Of a stretch of 64,000 bases of DNA, positions 7,946 to 36,849 are shown piece after piece (within the stretch, counting starts at the first letter, position 1; each line of letters starts with the position of its first letter). The position numbers and the translations under genes are program-made. This DNA comes from a virus. The DNA lies in the IMG/VR virus record IMGVR_UViG_3300007754_000004, positions 1 to 64,000 of that record; one strand, 5' to 3'. Under the pieces are notes generated by a model, which did no database searches, was not told the origin of the DNA, and saw nothing but the letters and a program-made list of their open reading frames with translations.

Positions 7946-7948
7946 GAC

Positions 7949-8635: not shown

Positions 8636-8655
8636 TAGGGGATGCTCCTCTGTCG

Positions 8656-8684
8656 GGTATACGACCCGCGTGTGGGAAGATACC
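8656..8684 (-). promoter_or_regulatory. Phage-type promoter before the N-terminal ligase gene
   Basis: The minus strand reads GGTATCTTCC, then GGGTCGTATAC, with the standard 20-nt spacing. It lies about 21 nt before the ATG at 8635 and ends 2 bp short of the stop codon of the next gene. Confidence 0.7.
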
Positions 8685-8686
8685 TA

Positions 8687-15283: not shown

Positions 15284-16107
15284 TTCTTACGCCTCCTCTC
15301 CCACGGCTTCTTTTTCTTCTTGCTATCCGAATCGAGACCAAGATCTACGTTGACGGCTCGGGTCCCTCCCGTAGACCTCGCGAACCTCGGGTCAGTGGCC
15401 GCGGAAGGACGCGGCGGGCCCCCCACACTTGGCTCGAAAGCCATCTCTTCATAGCCCCGAGAGGGCTTCCGAACCGAAGGTGTCCGAGACTGCCCGTAGA
15501 CTCGCTCCCAACCCCGGACGAAATCTCCAACCAGATGGTCATAGGAGAGGTGCCCGTCTTCCAGCGGGTAGTTCGGCTGATCTACTATCCAGGTAGGGTT
15601 GCCTGCGTGGAGCCGGAGCATCAGGGCTTCCAGAAAGACCTCCGCCATCGCGGAGTTGCGAGCCGCCTTGACCCCGAGGTAGATGACCAGCAGTTCAGCG
15701 GGGGCGACCAGATCTTCCAGGGAGTAGTGAGACGCGGTGACCACCATCGCATCCGGGTCAAAGATCTCTGCTCCTTTGACCGCGTGGCTGGCTAACCACG
15801 CCGTCATGAGCTGGGCGTCCGTGACTACCTGAAACGACCAGGATGGGGGCCGGCGGATCGCGACATGCCTCATGTGCTCCACGAACCAGCCACGGGGAGC
15901 GGTGATCCAGGTGTTCTTCTCGACCCGCTCCGTGAGTGGGCTGCTTGGAATCGGGTCGGCTTTCAGAAGGCCGGGCATTCCTCGTTCCACATTTCGCTTG
16001 ATCGCCTCCCGAAGGCGGCAACCACACCGCTGGACGACTGGTGGCACGAGTCCCTCTTGAGGGACTGGAACGACACCAGCCCCTCCACATACGACACACT
16101 CAGCCAT
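15280..16107 (-). CDS. Putative helicase loader with N-terminal zinc ribbon
   Basis: 275 residues. The N-terminus has two Cys pairs (CVVCGGAG...CGC). The middle (DLVAPAELLVIYLGVKAARNSAMAEVFLEALM) resembles the Walker B region of DnaC/DnaI-like loaders, but no Walker A is visible. The C-terminus is disordered and Lys/Arg-rich (KKKKKPWERRRKK). Its position directly before the DnaB-like gene supports a loader role. An unrelated replication accessory protein is possible. Confidence 0.5.
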   Translation of the reverse strand: MAECVVCGGAGVVPVPQEGLVPPVVQRCGCRLREAIKRNVERGMPGLLKADPIPSSPLTERVEKNTWITAPRGWFVEHMRHVAIRRPPSWSFQVVTDAQLMTAWLASHAVKGAEIFDPDAMVVTASHYSLEDLVAPAELLVIYLGVKAARNSAMAEVFLEALMLRLHAGNPTWIVDQPNYPLEDGHLSYDHLVGDFVRGWERVYGQSRTPSVRKPSRGYEEMAFEPSVGGPPRPSAATDPRFARSTGGTRAVNVDLGLDSDSKKKKKPWERRRKK

Positions 16108-20179: not shown

Positions 20180-20245
20180 AAGCCTCCTCGGGACCCCTCC
20201 CTCTACCACACCGGGAGGCTTCTTAGCCCCCCGACTGCGTCAACC

Positions 20246-22132: not shown

Positions 22133-22495
22133 TCAACGATGAGCGAGGATGGTTTCGACAATCCTCGCTTTTGTCATGTCCGGGGTTACGAGAGCACCCT
22201 CTCCCCGAGCCACCGTCAGGAGATCGGATTTAGGGAGACGTTGAAGAGCCGATCGACTCAACAGGATGGGGCTCGGTTCACCGGTCCCGGGGTCGATAGC
22301 CCCTGGAGGCGGGGGGCTGTCCGCCCGGTAGGTCTTAGGCTTACCCAACTCCAACAGCCGTCGCTTCACGTTCTGCCTCTGGTCCTCAGAAAGTCCCGGG
22401 TTCAACAAAGCAGACCTGAGCTGAGACCGGTACCTCGCGAGGTGTTGTTCCCGCAGCTCAAAGGGAACGTCCATCTGACTCAAGAAGTGAGGCAT
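22133..22495 (-). CDS. Hypothetical protein with SAP-like C-terminus
   Basis: About 120 residues. The ATG at 22495 overlaps the stop of the giant tail protein (TGATG). The C-terminal 40 residues (SALQRLPKSDLLTVARGEG, then TKARIVETILAHR) have the helix-extended-helix form of SAP/Rho-N domains. The middle is Pro-rich. It may be a virion assembly or DNA-binding factor. Confidence 0.6.
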   Translation of the reverse strand: MPHFLSQMDVPFELREQHLARYRSQLRSALLNPGLSEDQRQNVKRRLLELGKPKTYRADSPPPPGAIDPGTGEPSPILLSRSALQRLPKSDLLTVARGEGALVTPDMTKARIVETILAHR

Positions 22496-25400
22496 CAACC
22501 CACCGTGCTAGAGACGTCGCCGCCAGAGTAGACAGCCAACACAACGCCGGCCACATCGGGCGAACTCCGACGACGACCCTTGACCATCGGCCGCCCCTCA
22601 AGCCGATACCTGTCCGCGGCGGCGTAGCCTTCGCCATATCCGCTCGGGGAGATGATCCCACTCAAGGAGAGACCATCATCCTGAATGCTGCTCCCCAGGA
22701 GCCCGTAGGTCGCGACGACCATCTGAACCTCGTCTCCCTGGCTCACCTGAGCGTTGGTGGAAAACGCCTGCTCGGGGAAGTTCCGGACCAGCATTGCCTT
22801 GCAGACCAGGACGCCACCCTTGAGGACCGGCTTGAGGCTGGCCTCAAGGGCTCCGCTTACCCAATCCACGGGACCACCCGGGTTGGGGTCGTCCATGACG
22901 AACACGGAGCCCCCGCCGCGATAGAGGCGGTACTTCTTGCTGCCCGTCGGCTCGTTCACGTCGTGGTACGCCGTGTAGGCCAGGATCCCACCGTCCGCCA
23001 TCCCGACCCAATGACCCGCCCCACCCGTGAAACGGGTGTAGGCCCCGCTCCCGCTGTTTGTCAACGGAAGGAGAGTCTGTACCGGCCGAATCCCAGGCGG
23101 GAGCGTCTGCATCGCAGATGCTTTGTTGCCCAGGGGATCCTCGCAAAGGAAGTCGCTGTCCTGAAGGAGAATCCCAAGCGGGAGTCGCTCCGTCATTCCC
23201 GTCAAGTCAATCTGAGAGGTGCCCGACCCGGCGTTCATCACCAGATCAGACCCATCCCGGAGATTCGCCGCCGTCGGGGTGCCCACTCCGGGCTCCGGCG
23301 TCGTCGGAGTCAGAAGCTTGAACGCCGCCGGAGTGTCGTGAGACACCTTGATCCCATTCCCCTGAGCACCTACAGGGACCGCCTCGATCAACAGGACGTC
23401 GTCACCCTCCGTCCGCGCCGTCACCACCGCCGTCAAAGACGTGTGGGCGTTGATCCCAGCGACCAGATTCACGATCGAAGCCGCAGCGTCAGCTCCGACC
23501 TGAAACTCAGTTTGGTCCGCAGGGGACCCCGAAACTGCCGTGAGGGTAATCTTTGTCCCGCTCAAGTTGTAGATGGTCAGAATAGCCCCGGTCAGGGAGC
23601 CGTTAGCAATGACCTGAAGGAGAACGGAAGCCCTTGAGTTGTTTTCCCGCTGGCCCTCACTGAACGCCCTGGGGAGAATCCTCCAGGGGTTCGCGGAGGC
23701 TGAAGCCGGCACCCGAGAGGCTGCCGCTGCGGTGTCCTCCGTGTATCCGACGTCGAGGATCGTCCCGGCCTTGAGCTGGCCTCCGACCTTCCCTGTTCCG
23801 AGGGTCGTGTAGAAGTCGATGCTGGCGAGCACCTGAACTACTCGCCGGTTGGGGGTCTCGATTTGAAGAACCCCGGAGCTGTCGAATTGCTGAATCGGAG
23901 TCGCCAGAGCGTAGGCATCTGAGACAGCGATCTGCCCATAGCGATGCTGGTAGTCGCTGGTAGTGCGGGTACTCCCCGCTCGCGTCATGTAGGGGTCCCC
24001 CTGATAGACCGTCCGGTCGTATCCGACATACACCTGATCGTTAAGGGGTGCCGCAGCGGGGATCGTCATGTTGATCCCTTCCAGCTCCACGTTGGTCCCT
24101 TCGGTGACCGCAGCACCGGCCCCCGTGTTCCTCCGAGCGAGGACGAAGTTGTTCAGGTTGATGAATCCCCGGGCGAAACCGAAGACCACGCACTCAACCA
24201 CATACTCCAGGTCGTCGAAGGTCTCGCCGGAGACATAATCCGGGCTCAGGCTGATATCGAGGGCGTTGGACGGAATCACGTAGGTGTGATCGTCCGCGTC
24301 GCCGGTCACGTCGTTCGCCCCACCCTTCCGAATGAACAGGGTTTGAGCCTTGGCGTCCTTCCTCAAGAGGTTGGTCGCCGCGTCTGAAGACACCGTGACC
24401 CGGTCGGCGTCGAAAGTCGCCCCACCCTTATCGATGAAGTTCCGACGATCATAGACGCCGTAGAGGCGAGCAATACCCAGATAGGGAGGCAGCTCGATCC
24501 CCTTCAGAGTCCGTCCGAGATCTGAAGAGACTACCGTGGTGTCCGTGACCAGCCGGGCCTGATACGCCGGGGTCGCGGGACCGGCGATGGTTCCATACTC
24601 CCCGTAATCCAGACCCGAAGTGCTCCCGGTCTGGAGGTAGAGAGAGGACACCAGATTCCCAGCGGAGTCGTTGTTCTGCCCGCCCACGACATAGAAGACC
24701 GGCTTGGTCTCGTCAGCGTCATCGGTAAAGAGGTGGTTGATCCCAGGGAGAAAGGTCCCCGTGGTCACCGAGGTGTCATGGTAGGGAATGTCCTGGCGAC
24801 CAAACCGGGGCATGTACTCCCAGGGGACCACGAATCCCATCCTCAGGTTTGAGGTAAAGATCGTCGCCCCATCCTTGTCTGTCCCGATGGTCGGGGCCGG
24901 GCCCGGATAAGTGGTCGCGCCGACTAGGCTGGAAGCCGCCATGTTCACGGAGAACATGGTCATGCTCCGGTCCAAGAAAGGCCGGAAGACAAGAGACTTG
25001 CTCCCCTTATCGAAGAAGACCTCAACCTCTCGATCCTGCTCCGAGAACGCGATGATCTCGCCCCCGTGGGCCGGGGCAGCGGAGCCATCCAGCCCCAGGC
25101 CACTCAAACGATTCCAGACCTGGACATGAGCCGAGTCGAAGTGCGTCTCTGCGGACGCGACCCCGGACTCAGAGGAGAACGTGGAGTCCAGCGTAGACCC
25201 CGCCTGCCGGAGATAGTTCGCCCCAGCACTCCTCACGGCGACGCGGCGGATTTCGTCCGCGACTCTCGCTGTACCGCCACGACCAGGGTGATACAGCAGA
25301 GAGGTGGAGAGGATCGCCTTGCTGGCGATCGGCTGGCTGATCGCGTTGGCCCCGAGCGTCCCCGCTGCCCAGGGAGCGGATCCCGCTCCCTCCAGGTCCG

Positions 25401-27846
25401 TCAGGACAACACAAGCTGCCGCCTTCCCGTCCGTGAACCCGGTCCCGTCCTGAGAGTTGCAGTGCTGTGACCGCACCTCAGCGTTCAGAGTCCCCGAGCT
25501 GGGCAACGTAAACTCAGTCACGCCCTGACAGATAAATTCCACCCGGAGACGATCCGCAGCGGAGGCATCCTTGTCGGTGTACCCAGCCGTCCCCGCTCCG
25601 ACGACCTTGAAAACTCCGTTGTTGTCCGCGTTGGTGTCGTCCCCATACACCACGATGTAGACTTCAGAGCTAGCCCCTGTCCGATCCTGACCTCCGTTGG
25701 TCAGCATGTCATACAGCGTGCGGGTGCTGTTGATCAGAGTCTTCGATGACCCCGTCGTAGACAGGCTCATGTCTCCGTTGGTCTCCAACGAGAACCACGT
25801 ACCTGCGGTGTCGAAGTCTAGACCCGGGAGATCGATCTCGTACTCACTGGACGAAGGGCTGTCGTTGACCAGGGTGACCGCGGAGACCTGGAGGTCGTTG
25901 TGCAGCAACCCGCCCAGGAACATGAAAGGCTTCTCAAAGTTCTCTGAAGCCAGAGGGTACATAGGCCCCGGATGCAGAGCGGCGACCTCACCCGGGGCGG
26001 CCGGGTTCATCGCGTCCTCTTCAATGAACCGGAGAGTCACGGACTTCTGGAGCCCCGTGGAGCTGTCCGGGTCATCGGTCTTCCAGTATTCCCGGGGGGA
26101 CAGGAACCGGACGGCTCGCTCTGTGGTGTCCCGGAAGGTGGCCCTTGCTCCCTCGGAGCCGTTGTCCCCGCCGATGTGGAGGAAGAATACGGAGCCGTTG
26201 TTGAACCCCGTCGCGTCCGTCATGAAGCCGCTGGGCTTGAAGTCCGCCCCTACATCCCACTCTGTCACTGCATCAAAGCTCGTGACGCTCCCGCTGGTCT
26301 GCGTTGCCTCGTCATCTAGGAGGACCGTCACCCCAGGCTGAATGACCGCGGCGTCAGACCAAATGGTCCGGATCCCGTCAGGACCATCCACCGCTTGCGT
26401 CTGGTTGGGTACGGAAGCAGCCCCGTTGGCGTAGAGGTAGTCTACCTCCACCACCGAAGGCCCCTGCGTGTCTCCCGTGTCCGACTGCTTGTGGCACGTC
26501 TGGAGGCGACCAAGGATCAGCTTCGTCAGGTTGTGGCGGAGCAGGTGGTCGTAATCCCACTGGCCCAGGGAGATCCCCCGGCGAAGGTCCAGCACATCCC
26601 CCGCTGCGATCTCATCCGCAAAGCGACCATCCGGCCGGCTGTTGAAGAAGCCGATGGAGGCACCCGCCGAATGAGGGAGAGCCATCGAGCCATTGCGACC
26701 CCGGCCGCCCGTCGGGATTGTGATCGTCCCGGCGGTCGTGTCCACCGCCGAGATCCCCATGACCTCCCCATCGATCACCATGAAGGTGCTCGAAACCGAG
26801 AGGCTCGGGTCATCCCAGCCAGAGTTGGTCAGCCCCGTGACCTGGATAGCTCCCGTGTCATCCTCATCGATCGCGTTCGTCAGGGTCGCGGTTCCAAAAG
26901 CCTTCGCCCCATCCCGGGGGTTCGTCAGGGACGCCGCGGAAGGGTTCCGATCAAAAGAGCCGTTCTGGTTCGCGTTACCTGAAGTCTCCACCGCTACGAA
27001 GGCGTTCGCGTTCCTCCGGAAGACCGCACATAGGGGGATCGCGTACACGTAGCCGTCATAGGTCCCCAGGCTGTTGGTCGCGTCTCCATCACCCGCCCGC
27101 CAAAGCGAAGGGTCGCCCAAAGTCTCCCGCATGTTCGTGAAGACCATGCCGCTAACCGGAGCCGTCGCCACCCCCTGCCCCAGCACGTTGGGGTCGTCCA
27201 GCCCGTCCGGATACTGGTCCAGCGCAACAGAGGAACCCGATCCCGCCCCCTGCCCAAATACCCGAATCCGATACTGAAGCTGGAGTCGCTCTGTCGTCTC
27301 AAACCCGAAAGCCGGGTCTTCAATATCGTCCGTGATGTTGGTCCCCCCATACTCCACGTTCCCCCACTTGTAGACGGTGGAAGCTGAAGGCTTGTTCGTG
27401 GTGCTCGGGTTAGGCCCCACCTGAGTCAGCCACACCTCCAGAAAGACCAGATCGGTTCTGGCATCCGTAGCCGGAGGGGGGAAGAGCTTGACGAGGTGGC
27501 TCGTGTCCGTGTCCGCAGACACAGCGGTTCCTACAACCGGAACCACCCAACCATTGACCAGAGCCCAGAGGATCGGCTCCAGCTCCCCAGACTGCTGCCG
27601 GCCGAACTTGAAGTAGTTGCTCCAGGCAGAGTTGAATTCGTAATCCGTCAGGGCAGACACCGGATCCAGCAAGAAGCCTGAGTGGGATTGACTCTGGAGA
27701 GCCTCCCGCATCCTCTCCCAGGCAATTTGAGCCATTAGATTTAGCTCATGATCTAACGGCGGTTTCCCAGCCTGCCATACTACTGAGGCGAACTGCCTGT
27801 CAAGAGCAGACAGGGTACGACTAGGTCCATTGAATCGCTCAGCCAT
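22495..27846 (-). CDS. Giant baseplate/tail-type structural protein
   Basis: 1783 residues. The N-terminus (LSALDRQFASVVWQAGKPPL, then DHELNL) has the QxGxPxxDxxLNL signature seen at the start of tail and baseplate proteins. The first 560 residues or so are similar to the 1096-residue protein at 54402-57692: FLEVW, GNVE..DDIED...ETTxRxQxQYR, LWxAGDG, YAIPxCxVFRRN and RPDGxFxDxI...DLLDLRR are shared. A beta-rich repeat domain with VGADAAASIVNLVAGINAHT lies near residues 1470-1600. GAGGTG lies just before the ATG, and the start overlaps the HNH gene by 8 nt. Confidence 0.85.
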   Translation of the reverse strand: MAERFNGPSRTLSALDRQFASVVWQAGKPPLDHELNLMAQIAWERMREALQSQSHSGFLLDPVSALTDYEFNSAWSNYFKFGRQQSGELEPILWALVNGWVVPVVGTAVSADTDTSHLVKLFPPPATDARTDLVFLEVWLTQVGPNPSTTNKPSASTVYKWGNVEYGGTNITDDIEDPAFGFETTERLQLQYRIRVFGQGAGSGSSVALDQYPDGLDDPNVLGQGVATAPVSGMVFTNMRETLGDPSLWRAGDGDATNSLGTYDGYVYAIPLCAVFRRNANAFVAVETSGNANQNGSFDRNPSAASLTNPRDGAKAFGTATLTNAIDEDDTGAIQVTGLTNSGWDDPSLSVSSTFMVIDGEVMGISAVDTTAGTITIPTGGRGRNGSMALPHSAGASIGFFNSRPDGRFADEIAAGDVLDLRRGISLGQWDYDHLLRHNLTKLILGRLQTCHKQSDTGDTQGPSVVEVDYLYANGAASVPNQTQAVDGPDGIRTIWSDAAVIQPGVTVLLDDEATQTSGSVTSFDAVTEWDVGADFKPSGFMTDATGFNNGSVFFLHIGGDNGSEGARATFRDTTERAVRFLSPREYWKTDDPDSSTGLQKSVTLRFIEEDAMNPAAPGEVAALHPGPMYPLASENFEKPFMFLGGLLHNDLQVSAVTLVNDSPSSSEYEIDLPGLDFDTAGTWFSLETNGDMSLSTTGSSKTLINSTRTLYDMLTNGGQDRTGASSEVYIVVYGDDTNADNNGVFKVVGAGTAGYTDKDASAADRLRVEFICQGVTEFTLPSSGTLNAEVRSQHCNSQDGTGFTDGKAAACVVLTDLEGAGSAPWAAGTLGANAISQPIASKAILSTSLLYHPGRGGTARVADEIRRVAVRSAGANYLRQAGSTLDSTFSSESGVASAETHFDSAHVQVWNRLSGLGLDGSAAPAHGGEIIAFSEQDREVEVFFDKGSKSLVFRPFLDRSMTMFSVNMAASSLVGATTYPGPAPTIGTDKDGATIFTSNLRMGFVVPWEYMPRFGRQDIPYHDTSVTTGTFLPGINHLFTDDADETKPVFYVVGGQNNDSAGNLVSSLYLQTGSTSGLDYGEYGTIAGPATPAYQARLVTDTTVVSSDLGRTLKGIELPPYLGIARLYGVYDRRNFIDKGGATFDADRVTVSSDAATNLLRKDAKAQTLFIRKGGANDVTGDADDHTYVIPSNALDISLSPDYVSGETFDDLEYVVECVVFGFARGFINLNNFVLARRNTGAGAAVTEGTNVELEGINMTIPAAAPLNDQVYVGYDRTVYQGDPYMTRAGSTRTTSDYQHRYGQIAVSDAYALATPIQQFDSSGVLQIETPNRRVVQVLASIDFYTTLGTGKVGGQLKAGTILDVGYTEDTAAAASRVPASASANPWRILPRAFSEGQRENNSRASVLLQVIANGSLTGAILTIYNLSGTKITLTAVSGSPADQTEFQVGADAAASIVNLVAGINAHTSLTAVVTARTEGDDVLLIEAVPVGAQGNGIKVSHDTPAAFKLLTPTTPEPGVGTPTAANLRDGSDLVMNAGSGTSQIDLTGMTERLPLGILLQDSDFLCEDPLGNKASAMQTLPPGIRPVQTLLPLTNSGSGAYTRFTGGAGHWVGMADGGILAYTAYHDVNEPTGSKKYRLYRGGGSVFVMDDPNPGGPVDWVSGALEASLKPVLKGGVLVCKAMLVRNFPEQAFSTNAQVSQGDEVQMVVATYGLLGSSIQDDGLSLSGIISPSGYGEGYAAADRYRLEGRPMVKGRRRSSPDVAGVVLAVYSGGDVSSTVG

Positions 27847-28456
27847 AGGACACCTCAGAGTTTAGAGGGAACGACCTGGGGCCGCCGTTTCTCCCTTGCT
27901 TGGAAAAACTCGGAATCCCCATCCGTTTCCGATATATACAGACCATCGACTTGGAGACACCACCGATTTCGGCTACCGCTGCGTCGGTCATGGTCCCGGC
28001 TAATGGGTGCCAATCTCGATGGGGTGGCTTCGATGTTTTGAGTCGGTAAGGCACGAAGTCTGCGGGTGCTTCTACCTGAGTCTTGAGCCCCTTCCCACGT
28101 CGCTTCCACACCATGTCAATGTCTGCGGGGTCATTTCGGGAAGCCCCCTTACTCGTCTGCTGAGTCCGCTCTCGGTGGCAGTTGGCACAGACCACCTCAC
28201 ACTTGGCAGCCTCAGCACGGATGGCATCCTTCGATCCCATGTGAAGAACGCAGCCCAGCTTCCTACCCCGAACGTGGTCGAAATCGAGCTGACAGTAGTG
28301 CCACGCCAATCCGCTCCACTCCCGCTTTGCGGCCCGCTCGCACTCCCGACACTGGCGGTGACGAGGCCGGAAATCACCGGGTTCCCCACACTTTGAACAC
28401 AACTGCCGCTGGAGGGCTGAGAGCGTCCAGGAAGCGTTCGGGGTTTTCTCTGCCAT
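27839..28456 (-). CDS. HNH endonuclease (homing-type)
   Basis: 205 residues. A four-Cys zinc finger (C20, C23, C36, C39) precedes an HNH core (DFDHVRGRK...VVCANCHRER). The C-terminus has a helix-turn-helix-like segment (TDAAVAEIGGVSKSMVCIYR, then MGIPSF) typical of free-standing phage homing endonucleases. The first 19 residues (MAE...TLSALQRQL) mimic the N-terminus of the tail protein that follows. It overlaps that gene by 8 nt. AGGA lies 7 nt before the ATG. Confidence 0.88.
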   Translation of the reverse strand: MAEKTPNASWTLSALQRQLCSKCGEPGDFRPRHRQCRECERAAKREWSGLAWHYCQLDFDHVRGRKLGCVLHMGSKDAIRAEAAKCEVVCANCHRERTQQTSKGASRNDPADIDMVWKRRGKGLKTQVEAPADFVPYRLKTSKPPHRDWHPLAGTMTDAAVAEIGGVSKSMVCIYRKRMGIPSFSKQGRNGGPRSFPLNSEVSYG

Positions 28457-28482
28457 CGATCGATCCTAGGCGTGGTTCAGTA

Positions 28483-28495
28483 GGCTGAGTCAGCC
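28483..28495. promoter_or_regulatory. Palindrome upstream of the HNH gene
   Basis: GGCTGAGTCAGCC is a perfect 13-nt palindrome in the 89-nt gap between the receiver-domain gene and the HNH gene, about 27 nt before the HNH start. It could be an operator. No standard phage-type promoter is visible in this gap. Confidence 0.35.
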
Positions 28496-28545
28496 CTCAG
28501 ACCCTACCCAGGCTCCCCTATAGCCTCCTTACCACGGATCACATC

Positions 28546-29142
28546 TCAGCCGGACTCGTAGGGCTCCACTTCATCGTGATCGTAGTATCCCTCGCCTCCC
28601 GCCTCATGCCGGACCTTGTACATCAAACCGTGGGAATCACTGACCTCAACGACCTCTCCCACAACACCCCAACGACACCGCTCGCGGACACCCGGCGCCC
28701 ACCCAGCTTCTTCGCTGGACGGTTCCAGCGTCCGAACTGAGGCCCCCACCGTCAGCCGATTCTTCCGGCCGATGATATATCGGACGTCCCGAAGGGGTTC
28801 CGCCATCCATCCGATCAGCCGCGTCCCTCCGCAGAGAATCCCGGCTTCAGACAGGGCCCCCATCATCTCCCGACGCCCCAAGTCGTGATTGGTGTTGACC
28901 AGGACCGGGATGGTGAACCCGTGCTTTACCAATCGCTCGCAAAGCCACTCCCCGTTACCCGGGCCCATGCTGTAGTCGAGGATGATCACGTCAAAGCAGG
29001 GATCCTGACCCATGAGGAGATAGTCCAGAGCTTCCTGCCCATTCTGCTTCCAGACGAGGTCACAGGCATGACCCAGCTTCTTCTGAGCGGCTTCCCACTC
29101 CGTGCTCATGTCGTCCACGACCAGGACTCGAAACTTCGTCAT
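28546..29142 (-). CDS. Response-regulator receiver domain protein
   Basis: 198 residues. Residues 1-120 are a CheY-like receiver: acidic pair Asp10/Asp11 (VLVVDD) and phospho-acceptor Asp56 (DVIILDYSM). The conserved Lys before the KP motif seems replaced (GWMAEPL), so phosphorylation-driven switching may be altered. Residues 130-198 look like a small SH3/KOW-like beta domain (RWGVVGEVVEVSD...YYDHDEVEPY). No output DNA-binding domain. The start overlaps the upstream stop (TGATG). Confidence 0.75.
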   Translation of the reverse strand: MTKFRVLVVDDMSTEWEAAQKKLGHACDLVWKQNGQEALDYLLMGQDPCFDVIILDYSMGPGNGEWLCERLVKHGFTIPVLVNTNHDLGRREMMGALSEAGILCGGTRLIGWMAEPLRDVRYIIGRKNRLTVGASVRTLEPSSEEAGWAPGVRERCRWGVVGEVVEVSDSHGLMYKVRHEAGGEGYYDHDEVEPYESG

Positions 29143-29726
29143 CAGGGGCTCCCCATCGGAGGGTCGGGAAGCCCGAGGGCTTCTCGCAGGTTGGTCAGGG
29201 CTTGCCTGACTAGGAAGTGGTCATCCCGCCGAATATCAGGCATCCCATCCAAGACCACACGGGTGGGGCTCCCGTAGGGAAGCGAGACGATCTCGAAATC
29301 CAAGGCGTGCCCCTCATCCCGGCGATCTCGGTACCGGAAATATCGATCAGGGACTTCCGACAGGTCCGCCTCGCGAGCCTTCTTGTACCAATCCGCAAAC
29401 ACGACAGGGATCACCCTGGCCTGAAACCAGGAGCCTTCAGCCGGGAAGTTCTGCGTCCACCGGAACACCCGGAGATTTTGAACGGAGGGGATTACCAGAA
29501 CAAAGCCATCCGGGAAATCCGAGGTACAAGAGTCGAACACCGTGGTCGCCCGAGCTACCCGCAAGGTACCGCTCCCCCAGGCTACCAACCCCTGTCTGTC
29601 CATCAGGTCATAGAGAGCCGAGACCGTCTGACCCAGAAGGAGATCCCGGCGACAGCAACTCTCATAGAGAGCCGACACCAGCTCTTCGTTGTCACACCAG
29701 GGGTGATCGTGGAGGTAGAACCTCAC
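29142..29726 (-). CDS. Hypothetical protein
   Basis: 194 residues from the GTG at 29726, chosen for the GTGA overlap with the upstream stop; an upstream GTG in the same frame lies inside the previous gene. No family recognised. It is mixed alpha/beta and soluble. Confidence 0.65.
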   Translation of the reverse strand: MRFYLHDHPWCDNEELVSALYESCCRRDLLLGQTVSALYDLMDRQGLVAWGSGTLRVARATTVFDSCTSDFPDGFVLVIPSVQNLRVFRWTQNFPAEGSWFQARVIPVVFADWYKKAREADLSEVPDRYFRYRDRRDEGHALDFEIVSLPYGSPTRVVLDGMPDIRRDDHFLVRQALTNLREALGLPDPPMGSP

Positions 29727-30208
29727 GACTGCCCCGAAGAGTTGGACCACGCATAGACCACCCGGGCCTTCTCCAGCCCATGCTCCTCCTCAAATCGATC
29801 GAGGGTGAACCGGGGACGGTCAGGGTTCGACCCAAGGGGGCTCCCCTTGGTCGGCATCTCCCCCTCAGGGACAAGCTCCGCTCCGAGGAGGAAGAGACGA
29901 CGGTCCATCTCTACCGCCATCGCGGTCAGATCGTCCCCGATGTGTTCCTCCTTGAGGAAGGGAAGACCTTCAACCCGCCTGTAAAGCAGGGCGGGGCCAA
30001 ACTCATCCTTGAGGGAGACAAAGAGAGACCACTGATGGCGACCTGAACGCCGCTCCAAGGCCCCCTGTGACGCCTCCCAGGGGAGGAAGTAGACCCACCC
30101 CATGAGCCCGAACTCCGGATGCCTCGCCGGGACACGGATAGCGGCGTCGATTGGCTCACCTCGCTCAAGAGCGTCGAAGGCTTCTTCTTTGGTGCTCGGG
30201 GTGGTCAT
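29723..30208 (-). CDS. Hypothetical protein, paralogue of 30577-31068
   Basis: 161 residues. Shares with the 30577-31068 product a DAAIRVP-type start, a WVYF/WLYF strand, DRxLFxLGAEvV and a Phe-rich DRFEEEHGLEKARVVY-type end. The two lie one gene apart and probably arose by duplication. Function unknown. Confidence 0.7.
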   Translation of the reverse strand: MTTPSTKEEAFDALERGEPIDAAIRVPARHPEFGLMGWVYFLPWEASQGALERRSGRHQWSLFVSLKDEFGPALLYRRVEGLPFLKEEHIGDDLTAMAVEMDRRLFLLGAELVPEGEMPTKGSPLGSNPDRPRFTLDRFEEEHGLEKARVVYAWSNSSGQS

Positions 30209-30567
30209 ACCTGCTCCAGGGCGTTCGCGATTTCATCCAGATATCGAGAGCCTTCCAGAATCCTGAGTCGGCCGGACGACTCCGTGAGGTACCAGTCCCC
30301 GGCGTTCCCGTTTCGCCGGCCCTTGACGACCAGCCGGATCCCGCTGCCTGGACCCTCCTCCACGAGGGTATCCACGTCCTCCTCCAGATAGCGGCGATGA
30401 GCCTCCCGGAACATCCCGACCAGTAGAGCCCTTTCCTGAGTAGGCTGGACAACCTGCTTCCCCCCATCCCGAGCCCTCCCGAGCCACGTCCCCTCCTGTA
30501 GGAGGAGCCGATGCTCCTTCCTGCTCACCAGGATAGGGAAGTAGCCGTTGGATTGCCGAACAACCAA
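30205..30567 (-). CDS. Hypothetical protein with uncertain start
   Basis: Up to 120 residues, starting at TTG 30567 just after the upstream stop. A better ATG overlaps that stop (ATGA), but it is in another frame. Loss of one C from the five-C run at 30568-30572 would join it to this frame as MSYPLVVRQ. So the start may be TTG, frameshifted, or affected by a sequence difference. The protein is soluble and basic, with no family recognised. Confidence 0.6.
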   Translation of the reverse strand: MVVRQSNGYFPILVSRKEHRLLLQEGTWLGRARDGGKQVVQPTQERALLVGMFREAHRRYLEEDVDTLVEEGPGSGIRLVVKGRRNGNAGDWYLTESSGRLRILEGSRYLDEIANALEQV

Positions 30568-30576
30568 GGGGGTAGC

Positions 30577-31068
30577 TCATGACCGCTCCCTTGAGCTACC
30601 CCGGAAGACCAGCTTTCGGGCTTCCTCTCGCCCCAGATCATCCATCGCCCACCGCAAGCTGAACGGGGGGCGATCCTCCCGGTACCCAGCCCCGACGCAG
30701 TTGCCCGGCCACTCGCCATCAAGGACGACCTCCGCCCCCAGGCGGAAGAGGTAGCGATCCACCGCCACCGAGATCTGCTCCGCGGTCATGCTGCTGTCCA
30801 TCTCGATCTGGGCATACTCCAGCCCGACCTCTCCAACCTTGCCATAGGCCGGCTGACCCTGGTATGCCTCCACAGCGGACACGGAACCGATGCCCCCCAT
30901 GTGACTCCGCCCCCACCAGCGACCCATCTGGTTCCAGCAGCGGAAGTAGAGCCAGCGGCCGGTGTTGGTTCCGTCCGAGAGATAGACCGGGACCCGAATC
31001 GCGGCCCGGATCGCGATGCCCTCGTTGAGGAGGTCTTGGGCGTGTCCCTGGCTGGTCGGGCGGATCAT
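30577..31068 (-). CDS. Hypothetical protein, paralogue of 29723-30208
   Basis: 163 residues. RAAIRVP, RWLYFRCW and VDRYLFRLGAEVVLDGEWP align with the product at 29723-30208. GAGG lies 6 nt before the ATG, and a phage-type promoter lies just upstream (31097-31125). It is probably the first gene of the transcript that runs toward the tail gene. Confidence 0.7.
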   Translation of the reverse strand: MIRPTSQGHAQDLLNEGIAIRAAIRVPVYLSDGTNTGRWLYFRCWNQMGRWWGRSHMGGIGSVSAVEAYQGQPAYGKVGEVGLEYAQIEMDSSMTAEQISVAVDRYLFRLGAEVVLDGEWPGNCVGAGYREDRPPFSLRWAMDDLGREEARKLVFRGSSRERS

Positions 31069-31096
31069 GAGCTACCTCGTGTCTAAAGTCCCTGGT

Positions 31097-31125
31097 GTAT
31101 ACGAACTTGCTCGAAAAACTTACCT
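31097..31125 (-). promoter_or_regulatory. Phage-type promoter
   Basis: The minus strand reads GGTAAGTTTTTCG, then AGTTCGTATAC, with 20-nt spacing. Its upstream element overlaps the stop codon of the gene at 31120-31368. Confidence 0.7.
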
Positions 31126-31368
31126 GTAAAGATCAAGGTCTCGGACTTCCCCGACCACACTCCGCATCACATCGACAGCCTCCTGCTCGGAGTTATAGAT
31201 GGGTGCGGAGTTGACGAGGGGCTTCCACTTCATCCGGTCATGGTCGATCAACTCGATCCACCCGGTCCACTTCCCCTCTTCATTAGGCCCCCCCGCGGTA
31301 CAGGAGACGTCGCGGGTTTGGATGATCAGCATGGTCCCGCGACTCAACCTTGCGGTGAGGGGACTCAT
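31120..31368 (-). CDS. Small hypothetical protein
   Basis: 82 residues, beta-rich, with no recognised family. The start overlaps the upstream stop (ATGA). It is followed directly by a promoter for the next operon. Confidence 0.65.
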   Translation of the reverse strand: MSPLTARLSRGTMLIIQTRDVSCTAGGPNEEGKWTGWIELIDHDRMKWKPLVNSAPIYNSEQEAVDVMRSVVGEVRDLDLYR

Positions 31369-32264
31369 CGGTCTAGCTTTGACCAGGAAGGAGCCTCCCA
31401 GGTAACCGGCTCGTGGCCGAACCCGCTTCGGTGCTCGCTGACACGCCGCACCAGCTCTTCAGCGTCATCCTTGTGGATGTAGACGAAGTGGTAGCCCCGT
31501 CCATCCCTCCACTCGATCCGCAGGTCTTCACAGAGCTGAGTGGTGTGCTCCGCCGCCGCCTCGGCGGGGTAGAGATAGCGAGAGAAATACTGGTTCTGCA
31601 TCCCGAAGAGCCGGGAGAACGTCCGGATCTCGTAGAAGCCATCCCAGAACCAGCTCATCCAGAGCTTGAAGAGATCCCACCGAGCCTGGGCGAGTCTCCA
31701 GGCGACCATCGGGGTCTCATCCTCCCCATAGGCGGTGACCCGGAAGCAACCCGGGTCGTTCCAGAACTTCCCACCATGCCCCAGCCACCCGCCGAAGCGA
31801 TACTCCCGAACCGGCTCCGCCTTCATCATGGCGTGGATGAAGTCACGTCGGTCATGTCGTGAGGAGTGGGCCCCACACCGGTTCACCAGCACATCGTAGA
31901 CGGCTACCGCCTGCTCCTCAGTCAGGGTCCGCGGATCCCGGCGAGGGGTCGGCCAGTCGAACGACGGCGGGGGCTTGGGGATCTCCTCCGTGAGACCCTT
32001 CAGGTAGTGCCCCAGGTAGGCGTTAGCGGCCTCCCAGCGGGTCTTGAAGGGCCCGAGGGACTCCCGGGGGCTGGTCAGCTTGAGGTGGACGTACCAATCC
32101 CCTCGCTTGCCCTCCACGGTGCAGAGATACACCGGGATGTTCCCCTTGAAGGGAGGGAGGTTCCGATCAGGCTGAGTCCAGTCGCAGTAATAGCTGTGAC
32201 GACCCTCACCCCTGCCGCTGATGTGGCGGCCTCGGAAACTGAAATCAATCTCGGCACCCATCAT
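31365..32264 (-). CDS. Hypothetical protein
   Basis: 299 residues from the ATG at 32264, which overlaps the upstream stop (ATGATG). Rich in aromatic residues and Arg, with segments such as WDLFKLWMSWFWDGFYEI. No signal peptide or family recognised. It is the second gene of a three-gene operon from the 32487 promoter. Confidence 0.65.
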   Translation of the reverse strand: MMGAEIDFSFRGRHISGRGEGRHSYYCDWTQPDRNLPPFKGNIPVYLCTVEGKRGDWYVHLKLTSPRESLGPFKTRWEAANAYLGHYLKGLTEEIPKPPPSFDWPTPRRDPRTLTEEQAVAVYDVLVNRCGAHSSRHDRRDFIHAMMKAEPVREYRFGGWLGHGGKFWNDPGCFRVTAYGEDETPMVAWRLAQARWDLFKLWMSWFWDGFYEIRTFSRLFGMQNQYFSRYLYPAEAAAEHTTQLCEDLRIEWRDGRGYHFVYIHKDDAEELVRRVSEHRSGFGHEPVTWEAPSWSKLDR

Positions 32265-32470
32265 CGTGTCCACCTTTCGATCCTCTCGACCGCTTCCTCT
32301 ACGTCTTCGGCCATCGCGAGGAGCACGTCCGCCGTCTCCTCGTCCACATGACCAGCCTGAGACCGAAGGATCTCCGGGTCCGGCATGTTGGCGATCAGAC
32401 CCTCCAGAAGGGCCACCACGGCTCGCCTGTCAAGCCCTCGCACCCGCTCTCGTAGCCTCAACCTGTCCAT
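32261..32470 (-). CDS. Small acidic hypothetical protein
   Basis: 69 residues from the ATG at 32470, which has AGGAG 6 nt before it. The longer open frame reads through the promoter and is rejected. A Leu/Arg N-terminal helix precedes a very acidic C-terminal helix. Function unknown. Confidence 0.65.
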   Translation of the reverse strand: MDRLRLRERVRGLDRRAVVALLEGLIANMPDPEILRSQAGHVDEETADVLLAMAEDVEEAVERIERWTR

Positions 32471-32486
32471 TCGTATCTCCTGATTG

Positions 32487-32515
32487 AGTATACGAATGGG
32501 ATCAAGAAAGTTACC
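32487..32515 (-). promoter_or_regulatory. Phage-type promoter
   Basis: The minus strand reads GGTAACTTTCTTG, then CATTCGTATAC, with 20-nt spacing. It lies about 17 nt before the ATG at 32470. Confidence 0.72.
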
Positions 32516-32517
32516 GG

Positions 32518-33213
32518 CTAAGAGCAGGAAGCTTCCCACCAGAGTGCCACGGGGATGCCTTGTTCGTCGCAGGAGAGCATGACCACGACGTTTCCACCGT
32601 CTCCCCACCCGGTCTCCAGGGTAGCGAGGCAGGAGGCACTGACGCCGTCATGAGAGGGGAAGACGGGCTCCTGATTGAACCCAGGCTGGCCTCCCCATTG
32701 GTCCACACCATGAGGTCTGGGGAGGACCCTTCCGCTGGTCAGGTCGTCCAGAGCCATCTGCTTGTGGTGAATCTGACTGAGTACCTCCCGCCATCCCAGA
32801 GTCCGAAACTGCCCGTTAGAGCGGTAGGCTCCATCATGGAGCCGGTTGATCTCGGATTCCAGAGCGGCCACCTTCTTCCGAGCCTCCCCCACTTCGTCAT
32901 ACGGGGTGAAGGGTGTCTCCGGTTCGCTCACCGGGAAGAAATAACCGATGACGCCGTCATACCCCCCAGCTCGGGAGCACTGAAGAGCGAGCACCACCCG
33001 ATAGTTCTGACCATGGATGGGGACGATGATCCCTGATCCATGGGGTCTCCCAGGGTAAAGCCGCGGGGAGAACAGCTCCGGCCACCGAGAGGTCTTGTAG
33101 TGGATTGTCTCCCCGGAATCCGAGATCAGGTGTTCCCACTGGCAAACCTCTAAGCCCTTCAGGGGGCCCGGCGGCCGGTAAGGGGCCCGCTTTGCGGTCA
33201 GGGTGATCAGCAT
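32518..33213 (-). CDS. Hypothetical protein
   Basis: 231 residues with a charged helical stretch (EARKKVAALESEINRLHDG) in the middle and beta-rich ends. It overlaps the upstream gene by 7 nt. No family recognised. Confidence 0.65.
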   Translation of the reverse strand: MLITLTAKRAPYRPPGPLKGLEVCQWEHLISDSGETIHYKTSRWPELFSPRLYPGRPHGSGIIVPIHGQNYRVVLALQCSRAGGYDGVIGYFFPVSEPETPFTPYDEVGEARKKVAALESEINRLHDGAYRSNGQFRTLGWREVLSQIHHKQMALDDLTSGRVLPRPHGVDQWGGQPGFNQEPVFPSHDGVSASCLATLETGWGDGGNVVVMLSCDEQGIPVALWWEASCS

Positions 33214-33731
33214 AGGATTATCTTAATCAAGGGGAGGGAGCCGCAACCCTTACAGGTGGTCTCCAAGGTAGGCCCCACCACCCGCACCTGAAGGGGATGA
33301 CAGAGGCTCGGGGAGGTCTGAAGCGAGGGACAGCGAACCTTCTTCATCAAGAGAGTTGAATCTGCTCTCCGATACGTCCTGATAGGACCACCGCAGGGGG
33401 AGCAGACCACATGGACGAGCCCCGGAGCCAACCAGACGTTGACAAACTGGTAAATGCACCGGGAGCACTTCAGAACCTCCGTCCCCGAAAAGGAGCCCTC
33501 TCTGGGGGACCAGTCTGGGTAAAGGCTCTCCGGAAGCTGCCCAGCGGGGCAACCTGACCCGTGCTCGGGTCGTGGGCCCCGCCACCACTCATGGCAGTGG
33601 AGGCACTTCGACAGCTTGCTATCACCGAGCCCGCCCTGTGAGGCTAGGATCCCCCCGTAGCTGCTCCAGCCAGGGCCCGGGTCTCTCGCCTGGAAGCCGG
33701 GTGGGGCTCCAATGGGGGGTTTCCAAGCCAT
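33207..33731 (-). CDS. Cys-rich zinc-ribbon-like protein
   Basis: 174 residues with several CxxC pairs (CLHC, CSRC, CSPC, CKGC), consistent with two or more zinc ribbons. AGGAG lies 7 nt before the ATG, and a phage-type promoter lies at 33752. Nucleic-acid or protein binding is likely. Confidence 0.65.
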   Translation of the reverse strand: MAWKPPIGAPPGFQARDPGPGWSSYGGILASQGGLGDSKLSKCLHCHEWWRGPRPEHGSGCPAGQLPESLYPDWSPREGSFSGTEVLKCSRCIYQFVNVWLAPGLVHVVCSPCGGPIRTYRRADSTLLMKKVRCPSLQTSPSLCHPLQVRVVGPTLETTCKGCGSLPLIKIILC

Positions 33732-33751
33732 CGCTTCGCTCCTACTCCCCG

Positions 33752-33780
33752 CTATACGAACGAGGTCCCCATTATTGCCG
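33752..33780 (-). promoter_or_regulatory. Phage-type promoter
   Basis: The minus strand reads GGCAATAATGGGG, then CGTTCGTATAG, with 20-nt spacing. Its upstream element overlaps the 3' end of the methyltransferase gene at 33772-35187. Confidence 0.6.
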
Positions 33781-35187
33781 GCTCTTGTGGAGGATCATGT
33801 ACACCGTATTGATCCGAGTGCCTGATTCAAGGAAAGACTCAGGGGGGAGATCGGTGAAGAGATGCCCCCACCGGGACTTCTGACTCTTCGCCCAGGCCCG
33901 GAACCGCTTGTGCTTCGCGGTGGTGCCCAGGTCCGCGGAGATAGGCAGCACCGCGACCAGAGTGCCCCCCGGAGCCAGGAAGTCAAAGGCGTGGGTGACG
34001 TGCTCCATCCAGTGAGTCCCGTAGAACGGGGGGTTCATCACCACATGGGTGTAGATCGGATTGGCGGGGAGGTTCAGGAAGTTCGCCGGAATCACGGTGA
34101 GGCGAGGATTGTTGATCCCCTCCAGGGCAGAGACGCGGTCAGGATGAATCTCCACCGCGTCCACCTGACCGGCACCCTGACTCAGAAGATGGCGGACGAT
34201 ATGACCCGTTCCAGCGGACGGCTCCAACACCCGGGAGCCTTCGGAAAAGCGAACCCGATCGAGGATCTTCCCCACGACCGGGCTCGGAGTCGGGTAGAAG
34301 CTGAGATTCTTTGCGGGGAGGCCCGCCTTGGTCTTGAGGCTGTCCGCCGTGTCCCCACGAGGAGCCGCGTCCGGGAGAACCTCCCCGTAGTAGTCCGCCA
34401 GGACTTGATTGGCCTTCTCGACCAGATCATCCCGCCGGAACCAGAGGTGTGCGTTCCCATTCTTGAAACACCGCACGCGGAAATAGGGAGTCTCCGCGTA
34501 GGACTGTCGGGGGTTGTAGCCCCGGCCCCGGGTTTCCTCGATCGCCTTGGTCAGGGCACCGGGCTCCGGCTTCTTGCCGTCCAAGACAGCGAAGACACGC
34601 TCGATATCCGCCATCGTGTCCCGCATCCCGGAGTGGTAATTCCACGACCCCCACGAGTCGAACACGTTGGTCAGAATGATCCGGGTCCCGAGCTTGAACC
34701 CGTCGTGAGACTTGAACCTCCGATCCAAGTGCGTGAAAGCTCTGGCGAGCCCACGCTGAAAGATGAGGTTGGCGTCTGAGAGCAGGCTCTCAAGAATCCC
34801 CCGAACGTTGTCCACCGTGACCTCAGGCACGTCCCCACAGAGATCCTTCTCCAGGTCTTCCTTCGCCTTCCGGTCCATCAGGGTCCCCATCCCTGTCAAG
34901 ACGACGAGGTTCTTCCAGACACGGGCGTCCACGTACTTACGCCACACGTCCAGGGACGCCCCCGGATCGAACTGCTGGAAGAGGCGACGATAGGCCCCAT
35001 CCTCAGAGCGGTCGCGGAGGGCAAAGACGGCAGCCCCGTGAGCCTCCCGGGCGATCACTGCTGCCTCATCCACCATGTCATGACCCGCCTGGATCATCTC
35101 CACAGCTCGCCGCATCCTCTCAATGGAGGCATCGCGGGCAGCCACGATCCGAACGATCGTAGTCCGGGGGATAAGCTCCTGATCCAC
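33772..35187 (-). CDS. Adenine-type DNA methyltransferase with DUF4942-like N-terminus
   Basis: 471 residues. The C-terminal third has the cofactor motif VLEPSAGTGHIV and the catalytic NPPF (VVMNPPFYG), as in N6-adenine methyltransferases. The N-terminal two thirds (AFTHLDRRFKSHDGFKLGTR, then SWNYHSGMRDTMADIERVF) resemble the DUF4942 domain of methyltransferases on bacterial mobile elements. The GTG start has AGGAG 7 nt before it and a phage-type promoter. It could modify phage DNA against restriction. Confidence 0.8.
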   Translation of the reverse strand: MDQELIPRTTIVRIVAARDASIERMRRAVEMIQAGHDMVDEAAVIAREAHGAAVFALRDRSEDGAYRRLFQQFDPGASLDVWRKYVDARVWKNLVVLTGMGTLMDRKAKEDLEKDLCGDVPEVTVDNVRGILESLLSDANLIFQRGLARAFTHLDRRFKSHDGFKLGTRIILTNVFDSWGSWNYHSGMRDTMADIERVFAVLDGKKPEPGALTKAIEETRGRGYNPRQSYAETPYFRVRCFKNGNAHLWFRRDDLVEKANQVLADYYGEVLPDAAPRGDTADSLKTKAGLPAKNLSFYPTPSPVVGKILDRVRFSEGSRVLEPSAGTGHIVRHLLSQGAGQVDAVEIHPDRVSALEGINNPRLTVIPANFLNLPANPIYTHVVMNPPFYGTHWMEHVTHAFDFLAPGGTLVAVLPISADLGTTAKHKRFRAWAKSQKSRWGHLFTDLPPESFLESGTRINTVYMILHKSRQ

Positions 35188-35211
35188 GGGACAACTCCTG
35201 TTGTTGACTTT

Positions 35212-35239
35212 GTATACGACCCGACCCCAGAAAGTTACC
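35212..35239 (-). promoter_or_regulatory. Phage-type promoter
   Basis: The minus strand reads GGTAACTTTCTGG, then GGGTCGTATAC, with 20-nt spacing. It drives the methyltransferase at 33772-35187 and lies back to back with a possible plus-strand promoter. Confidence 0.75.
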
Positions 35240-35243
35240 CCCT

Positions 35244-35266
35244 AAAGTTCCTGGGCTAGCGTATAC
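35244..35266 (+). promoter_or_regulatory. Possible divergent plus-strand promoter
   Basis: AAAGTTCC followed by GCGTATAC resembles the phage pattern, but the spacing is only 17 nt instead of 20. It lies before the plus-strand membrane-protein gene at 35295. Confidence 0.4.
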
Positions 35267-35294
35267 CGGGTATGAGCCAACGTGAGACAAGCCC

Positions 35295-35705
35295 GTGATA
35301 GCCCTTGTTCGTTTCCTGAAGCGGCGTCTCGGGGTGAAGACATGGCATGTAGAGTCAGCCTTCGTCCTCTCGGTGCTGGTAGCCGTCGCTTCCCTGAACT
35401 GGTCCCGTTGGGAGGAGTGGCTTGGGGTAGCCGCTGTTTGGCTCACCTTCGGCCACGCCTCGGTCTCTGACCGGCTCTCTGAGAAAGAAGGACTCCGAGC
35501 AGCCTCCGGGGACCCCAGCATCGTTGAGTGCTGGGAATGGGAGCGGAGGTACTTCTACGGCAAAGAAGTGACGTGGTTCGTCTATTTCCTCGCCTTGGAA
35601 GCGTGGAGTGCCCTGGTGGGGGTGGTGGTCTTCCTCTTCCATCGGAAGTGGAGAGCCCACTGGAGAGCCTACAAGTCAGTTACCGAAGAGACCGGACCAG
35701 AATAG
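35295..35705 (+). CDS. Small multi-pass membrane protein
   Basis: 136 residues from a GTG start. Three hydrophobic segments lie near residues 22-38, 42-58 and 92-115, and the termini are charged. It is one of few plus-strand genes in this half of the window and overlaps the minus-strand gene at 35669 tail to tail. It may be a membrane-modifying or superinfection protein; function unknown. Confidence 0.65.
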   Translation: MIALVRFLKRRLGVKTWHVESAFVLSVLVAVASLNWSRWEEWLGVAAVWLTFGHASVSDRLSEKEGLRAASGDPSIVECWEWERRYFYGKEVTWFVYFLALEAWSALVGVVVFLFHRKWRAHWRAYKSVTEETGPE

Positions 35706-36049
35706 GGATAGGGATAGGAGTAAAGCCCACCCGCCCGCACGTAGAAGGTGTCCCCATCAGAGCAGGCGGCGAAGATGACGTTGGCCTCTTCTGGGGAGCA
35801 CTCTCCAGAAGGGATGCTCATCTCCTCGATCGACTGGACAAGCGCATTGGCCTCAGCCCACTCAGGATCCTTGAAAAAGCGGAAACGAACCCCCGCGGCT
35901 TCCAGGGCTTTCACCATGTCCCTTTGGGGAGCCCCTGAGGACCACTTCGTCGGTGGTCTGGGATAGTAGAAGTGTAAGAGATTGATTCGGACTCCCCGGC
36001 GAGTACAGCCGGGGTGAGTCGGGTCGCCTTGGAACTCCAGACCGAACAT
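35669..36049 (-). CDS. Hypothetical protein
   Basis: 126 residues from the ATG at 36049 (GAGG 5 nt before it). Soluble, mixed fold, Tyr-rich near the C-terminus (GGLYSYPYPYSG). A phage-type promoter lies just upstream. Confidence 0.65.
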   Translation of the reverse strand: MFGLEFQGDPTHPGCTRRGVRINLLHFYYPRPPTKWSSGAPQRDMVKALEAAGVRFRFFKDPEWAEANALVQSIEEMSIPSGECSPEEANVIFAACSDGDTFYVRAGGLYSYPYPYSGPVSSVTDL

Positions 36050-36065
36050 GATCACCTCGGTCCTT

Positions 36066-36094
36066 CTATACGACCGAGGCTCGGATAGTTTCAG
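36066..36094 (-). promoter_or_regulatory. Phage-type promoter
   Basis: The minus strand reads TGAAACTATCC, then CGGTCGTATAG, with 20-nt spacing. This copy is closest to a classical ECF form (TGAAAC, 15 nt, CGTATA). Its upstream element overlaps the stop codon of the gene at 36091. Confidence 0.72.
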
Positions 36095-36849
36095 AAGAGG
36101 ATCGAGTAGGCGGCGAGGTATCTCTTCGTGGACGTGCTTCGGTTCACGAAAGCGAGCCTCAAGGTGGCGGACTTCACGCAGAAGCCTGTAGGCTCCAATC
36201 TGCCTACCTGCGTCCAGGCGAGCCCGTCATTGAGACTCAGGTGGACCTCAAAATCCCCAGGCTCCTGGTTGGTCTCCGTGACGGACTTGACCGCGGGGGA
36301 GTTAGTCCCGCTGGTCGCCCCGTAGGAGGATCGAATGTCGTGGCTGGTGGAGAAATCATAGATCTGCCACCAGACCATAAACTCGTCCGCCCCGACGCCG
36401 CTGGTCTGAGCTGAGATATCAATGGAGTCTGTGACTACGCAGCCGGGGCGAACCGGTGTCACCATGGCATTCTGGGAGAGGATCGCAGTCATACAGGGAG
36501 CGGTGCCCGTCGCTGCGGGGCCCGTACCCCGACCTGTCTGCACCCGAGCAATCGCGGATCCCGGCCCGGTGGTGCTGAGGTCCAGGTCAGCCACGTCGGA
36601 TGCAGACAGGAGAGGGTTGAAAACGATGTTCCCGTATTGGGGATACTGAGCGAGTAACCCAGCTTGAGCCAAGCTGGAGACGTCTCCCCCATCCACAGGA
36701 GAGATGTACGAAGCCGGACCCACCTCGACCTTGGCCCCATCCGGGACGGGAATAATGAACTTCCCGTTGAATGGAGTGGGATCGCCCACCGCCGGGGTCT
36801 TCTCGACCTGAAGAATCTTCAGATCTGCGAAGTTTCCGAGGATCCTCAT
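36091..36849 (-). CDS. Probable virion structural protein
   Basis: 252 residues, Gly/Ser/Thr-rich and beta-rich. The start overlaps the stop of the 3412-residue protein, so the two are made together. The C-terminus (CVKSATLRLAFVNRSTSTKR) looks like a jelly-roll or carbohydrate-binding edge. It may be a partner or tip protein of the fibre. Confidence 0.6.
   Translation of the reverse strand: MRILGNFADLKILQVEKTPAVGDPTPFNGKFIIPVPDGAKVEVGPASYISPVDGGDVSSLAQAGLLAQYPQYGNIVFNPLLSASDVADLDLSTTGPGSAIARVQTGRGTGPAATGTAPCMTAILSQNAMVTPVRPGCVVTDSIDISAQTSGVGADEFMVWWQIYDFSTSHDIRSSYGATSGTNSPAVKSVTETNQEPGDFEVHLSLNDGLAWTQVGRLEPTGFCVKSATLRLAFVNRSTSTKRYLAAYSILF

Follow-up and report, generated by a model that had tools for sequence, protein, structure and literature searches.

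To what use could a virus put a CheY-like receiver domain that has lost the lysine of its KP motif? This question is raised by an open reading frame at 28546–29142 on the minus strand of the window, that is, the 64,000-nt stretch of virus record IMGVR_UViG_3300007754_000004 analyzed here; the record as a whole comprises 84,412 bases and is itself a fragment. An earlier note had suggested that the 198-amino-acid product, described as a CheY-like domain fused to an SH3-like domain, could sequester or mimic host two-component signaling.

The receiver domain and its lysine site

The ATG start of the receiver gene shares sequence with the stop codon of its upstream neighbor (29142–29750, minus strand), which encodes a 202-aa orphan protein with no Pfam or PHROGs family, and its G+C contents at the three codon positions (0.66, 0.42, and 0.73) were similar to those of five other genes measured. 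Pfam assigned residues 6–87 of the 198-aa protein to the receiver family PF00072 (Response_reg) with an E value of 1.8e-7 and 31.8 bits versus a cut-off of 30.2. Judged by this score, the match, which covers profile positions 1–80 of 111 and ends ahead of the lysine region, is well above chance. NCBIfam listed response regulators, kinases with receivers, and CheB, all below cut-off, and PHROGs returned three unnamed families.

The residues that the earlier note had reported as kept were found in both the translation and the alignments, namely the acidic metal-binding pair D10-D11 (29110–29115) and D56 at the phospho-acceptor position (28975–28977); T84, the conserved threonine after β4 (28891–28893), is kept as well, all being encoded on the minus strand. 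The lysine is not. E115 (GAA, 28798–28800, minus strand) occupies its place, followed by P116, and lies in the motif GWMAEP where CheY-type receivers read GYVVKP. In a MAFFT alignment with 13 receivers from viral contigs, read by eye, E115 fell in a column that held lysine in 12, the exception being L100 with glutamine. It fell in the same column upon alignment with 12 receivers from records related through a conserved 1783-aa gene (see below), a set that omits the duplicates of a second 402-kb record, the window's own copies, and the weak L074 (E 0.0176). Lysine occurred there in 10 of the 12, and the other two (L070 with a gap and L073 with Q) each had a nearby lysine that the aligner placed elsewhere. 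Furthermore, the lysines of the protein are at residues 3, 21, 22, 32, 73, 127, and 176; the stretch 74–126 has none, so that no alignment register there can place a lysine at the β5 site. The claimed loss of the KP lysine is thus borne out.

With K replaced by E115, the set of residues for receiver competence (DD, D, T, and K) is incomplete. According to Bourret et al. 2025 (PMC12632262), a receiver without at least one of these residues is a pseudo-receiver. Since the protein combines a receiver family match with the K-to-E replacement, it is, on its sequence, a pseudo-receiver by this definition. The same source estimates that pseudo-receivers make up about 6% of bacterial receivers (about 13% in the authors' earlier inference) and gives about 65% as the share of these in which D, T, or K, each counted separately, is found. 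The phage protein differs from the bacterial ones in being phage borne, in keeping the other four residues, and in carrying a predicted SH3-like barrel in place of an output domain recognized by Pfam. With the CheY-like receivers of PF00072 it shares the profile match, the modeled fold, DD, D, and T, whereas it differs from them not only in the Lys-to-Glu replacement but also in a Gly instead of Pro at D+4, a Trp at K−3, and, in the alignment, about 7–9 extra residues ahead of β5.

Predicted fold of the two halves

The AlphaFold model made from the single sequence had a mean pLDDT of 46.7 and was poor from residue 84 onward. When a shallow alignment of 13 viral receivers was supplied, the mean pLDDT was 68.6 and a full (βα)5 receiver domain appeared at residues 3–131 (28750–29136, minus strand), although the receiver fold is not independent of an alignment that held 13 other receivers, 12 with Lys in the aligned column. 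In this shallow-alignment model, β5 spans 109–112 and α5 spans 116–131, and the site structurally equivalent to that of the lysine, closely behind β5, holds E115 and no lysine. Searching with the model by Foldseek and VIA-align listed ordinary receivers first (best E 3.3e-7), and the top PDB fold matches had a Z of 15.6 and an rmsd of 1.8–2.0 over 112–117 residues. Together with the Pfam score, this sustains the description of a CheY-like domain. The matches listed span model residues of about 2–132 only, and hence barely cover the C-terminal half.

For that half, the model gave five strands (153–156, 161–169, 172–179, 184–188, and 192–194), with a short helix preceding the last, in an order that fits an SH3-like barrel (residues 150–194; 28561–28695, minus strand). 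The block pLDDT was 46–68, of medium to low confidence, and the barrel was modeled only within the full protein; no Pfam match to the C-terminal half was found. The fused SH3-like domain of the earlier note corresponds to this putative barrel, predicted at medium confidence, and the C-terminal half is probably a small SH3-like barrel.

It is worth mentioning that the best PDB match of the 198-aa protein by sequence was a DAHP synthase chain (1vs1_A), at a weak E of 0.011 over residues 71–113, followed by three receiver or kinase chains at 0.012–0.038; NCBIfam also listed DAHP synthase, at E 0.023 and 0.045. The likeness (28804–28932, minus strand) falls on the stretch expected for β4–β5. It is probably due to chance or to a general likeness of β-α units. 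Because of it, the receiver domain is less secure in its second half than in its first, whereas the missing lysine is unaffected, and so are the probabilities given below.

Divergent phage receivers of the cRec type (PF20274) are described as predicted cyclic-phosphate enzymes encoded beside RNA-repair and NAD enzymes (PMC7824862, PMC9503650), and the phage protein resembles them as those sources describe them, being a divergent phage receiver with the catalytic Asp kept and no adjoining kinase found. Its PF20274 match runs nearly end to end (profile positions 4–87 of 88, E 0.0013), its D+4 residue is Gly, as in the two over-cut-off cRec proteins that we found, and no kinase was found in its record. 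The match, however, scored 19.8 bits, or 21.3 when the receiver part was searched by itself, versus a cut-off of 27 and was 12 bits under PF00072. In one and the same search, moreover, a receiver with an intact lysine from a related phage record (G013) reached 25 bits versus 21.9 for the 198-aa protein, so that a weak match of this kind says little. The protein also differs from cRec in having β5-α5 in the model, and no RNA-repair enzyme was found among the proteins scanned, a partial scan (30 window proteins against Pfam and 26 against PHROGs) in which nothing matched RNA ligase, Nudix, sirtuin, or Macro families. Among viral predicted structures, giant-virus and some phage receivers or kinases came first, and the first cRec-named protein ranked 20th. 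A cRec-type cyclic-phosphate enzyme is thus very improbable indeed, and this identity was set aside on the grounds that PF20274 was below cut-off and that the protein was outscored both by PF00072 and by the lysine-bearing receiver. The two over-cut-off cRec proteins lie in two related phage records (G041:C1:248394-248744 and G030:C1:38893-39165), one of them within about 5 kb of the kinase cluster of its record.

An NAD-dependent DNA ligase, looked at with regard to a cRec-type gene neighborhood, is encoded about 20 kb from the receiver gene. It is divided over two minus-strand genes (7949–8635 and 2388–4118) joined by intein halves: the N part ends in EKLDGFS, after which the intein starts with CFDGG, and the C part opens with an intein end, ALAHN, followed by CALYYENG. 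A helicase gene (5237–7945) and shorter open reading frames lie between the parts. By its sequence, the split ligase has the appearance of a fractured gene whose intein is naturally split. Another open reading frame, for a 1369-aa SNF2-type helicase (16100–20209, minus strand), matched intein splicing and, twice, LAGLIDADG endonuclease.

Relatives and the cargo island

The earlier note had proposed a search for relatives in other phages. Two viral contigs (L006 and L007) were found to encode an identical protein, but no diverged relative turned up. Querying viral contigs with the full protein, the receiver half, or the C-terminal half gave none beyond these two, and among genome contigs none of 35 candidate stretches was confirmed for the full protein and none of 328 for the C-terminal half; both searches need exact short peptides and thus reach close relatives only. 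The phage search with the full protein returned 1 record at E ≤0.01 and 12 at E ≤10, and the plasmid search 269 records at E ≤10, those listed being receivers and hybrid kinases; the C-terminal half gave none in either. As only identical copies are known, selection on the receiver protein is not measurable.

The lysine site was read by eye in six fecal scaffolds of the 12 phage-search records, five having K and one (L114) having R. The loop NTNHD of the phage protein recurs as VTNHD in two receivers of unverified fecal scaffolds (L111 and L112), a likeness that, as far as sequence goes, speaks for an ordinary receiver loop. Upon comparison with 12 loci, the sole matches were receivers of four kinase clusters (L094–L097), at 28–36% identity over 53–102 residues. 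A special kinship to these receivers was rejected, since bacterial receivers reach an identity at least as high (38.8% at most, over 41% of the query).

The receiver gene lies between two conserved genes on the minus strand. Downstream is the 1783-aa gene (22495–27846), found at 43 loci. The viral contigs that carry it reach 618,736 bases, which points to a virus from among the large and huge phages; two of the 43 loci are the contigs with the identical receiver protein, and some of the loci are copies of one virus. Upstream is a 252-aa gene (36091–36849), which precedes the 1783-aa gene in 40 of the 43 loci. The gap between the two genes in these 40 was 13–1,359 bases (≤110 in 22, 111–300 in 9, and 534–1,359 in 9), versus 8,244 bases in the window (27847–36090, minus strand). 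Related loci match both flanks of this island and inside it match only an HNH endonuclease gene at its edge (27839–28456, minus strand), which has no Pfam HNH match and was assigned by PHROG HNH families (best E 1.3e-12). L025 and L028 have matches to the HNH gene within the corresponding gap (best pieces of 51–54% identity), as do, more weakly, L029, L030, and L034. Besides the HNH gene, the island contains the receiver gene, a gene for a DUF4942-methyltransferase protein, and genes to which the families scanned gave no name. No relative of the receiver protein was found in the other 41 loci, and the PF00072 matches in records carrying the 1783-aa gene lie away from those loci. Given the long gap and the absence of the island genes other than the HNH gene from related loci, the receiver gene is cargo in an apparent hot spot. 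The contigs L006 and L007 confirm the side running from the receiver gene through the HNH gene to the 1783-aa gene; because both stop inside the methyltransferase gene, the other island junction is seen in one record only.

These flanks bear on whether the receiver protein could be a virion or assembly protein. The 1783-aa gene, which has a weak match to an unnamed PHROG, is presumed from its size and neighbors to encode a virion protein, and no family among those scanned named it or its conserved neighbors; we infer that the conserved flanks form a virion module. A gene sitting between large genes of such a presumed module, conserved across related contigs, might itself serve the virion. Nevertheless, the island with the receiver gene is missing from related loci and the neighbors in it are the HNH gene, the methyltransferase gene, and orphan genes, which makes a virion role very unlikely.

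Several other features of the island were observed. The HNH protein (start 28456) and the 1783-aa protein (start 27846), both on the minus strand, open with similar residues (MAEKTPNASWTLSALQRQ and MAERFNGPSRTLSALDRQ), as though the gene start had been copied by the insertion, although the DNA identity is just 40/80 over the first 80 bases. Two orphan proteins (29723–30208 and 30577–31068, minus strand) appear by eye to be paralogue-like, sharing AIRVP and LGAE segments. The DUF4942 and methyltransferase protein (33772–35187, minus strand) has relatives at 59–61% identity in viral contigs L104–L106, and its methyltransferase part matches the PADLOC model mad2 (E 3.7e-21). No tRNA and no Rfam family was found. 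Across 27800–36200, no sigma-70-like promoter was found, and the 7 terminator-like sites versus a mean of 5.6 are near chance.

Kinases in related phages and a possible role for the protein

The 84-kb record yielded neither a histidine kinase ATPase domain (HATPase_c) nor a second receiver; as it is incomplete, the genome could encode a cognate kinase outside it. Among 44 records, nine carried over-cut-off receivers, three of these nine being the studied virus and its copies. Over-cut-off HATPase_c domains occurred in 6 of the 20 records searched, each adjoining a receiver; as two of the six share length and match coordinates, five are distinct. The kinase-receiver clusters (L094 at 6001–8867, L095–L097, G008 at 191–194 kb, and G022 at 223–226 kb) lie in contigs of 123–619 kb and comprise a receiver with a membrane segment (seen by eye in L094–L097), a histidine kinase (SHDL..PL, by eye), and a small receiver. 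The receivers of L094–L097 differ from the protein studied here in having the lysine and an adjoining kinase, and one of each two differs also in its membrane segment, as read by eye. These clusters of related phage contigs are of wider interest than the receiver protein itself.

A kinase adjoining receivers in five distinct related records, together with the kept DD, D, and T, is what could be expected if the protein were a phosphorylatable response regulator of the ordinary sort whose active site is unusual, supplied by a kinase of the phage, encoded outside the record, or of the host. With DD, D56, and T84 all kept, classical phosphorylation could still occur, and Bourret et al. (PMC12632262) state that phosphorylation is not necessarily lost altogether when DD, T, or K is substituted and that some pseudo-receivers keeping the Asp may regulate less efficiently. 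Against an ordinary regulator stand the lysine-free stretch and the related-record receivers, which keep the lysine in the aligned column or have one nearby. We consider this explanation unlikely.

The kept receiver surface and D56 would also suit a decoy of host two-component signaling, as the earlier note had in mind, which would dock on host kinases and drain or block phosphoryl flow. There is a precedent in principle, as the phage protein PIT4 binds Pseudomonas histidine kinase domains (PMC10714779). The precedent, however, is one of kinase binding by a protein that may or may not have a receiver fold. Moreover, the searches gave no diverged relatives, and loss of the lysine does not specifically indicate a decoy. 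We therefore regard a decoy of host signaling as rather doubtful. Still less probable is a more elaborate version, in which the Glu-for-Lys decoy would dock on and silence the host's kinases or receivers, or those of competing large phages that have kinase-receiver systems of their own, with the barrel recruiting the target.

The reading that we favor, at a probability of about one-half, is that of an orphan phage pseudo-receiver acting as an accessory adaptor, in which the metal site and acceptor Asp are kept, the Lys is replaced by Glu, and a barrel is joined. It is supported by the over-cut-off PF00072 match, the receiver fold, the K-to-E replacement, the lack of any HATPase_c or second receiver found, and the absence of the island from related loci. 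For the phage, the protein would fulfil an accessory (cargo) function and not be a component of the virion. Its receiver half may offer a docking surface for a histidine kinase, an Hpt protein, or another receiver, and its barrel may tether or inhibit a second partner. Phosphorylation of D56, if any, would be uncoupled from the usual conformational switch: with the lysine gone, it should not drive that switch, and the protein would work constitutively as an adaptor or could serve, at best, as a weak sink for phosphate.

Phage receivers as such have already been published, CDS-30 of Alteromonas phage V22 (PMC7289586) being one of them. A literature search, with most subscription journals outside its scope, found no published phage pseudo-receiver or phage-encoded two-component system. 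Altered receivers are common in bacteria, and the phage protein is an unusual one, not a radically new viral gene. As a small viral pseudo-receiver with four of the five residues, it would be a convenient test case, and binding to a host kinase, if it occurred, would make it a phage anti-signaling protein with a receiver fold.
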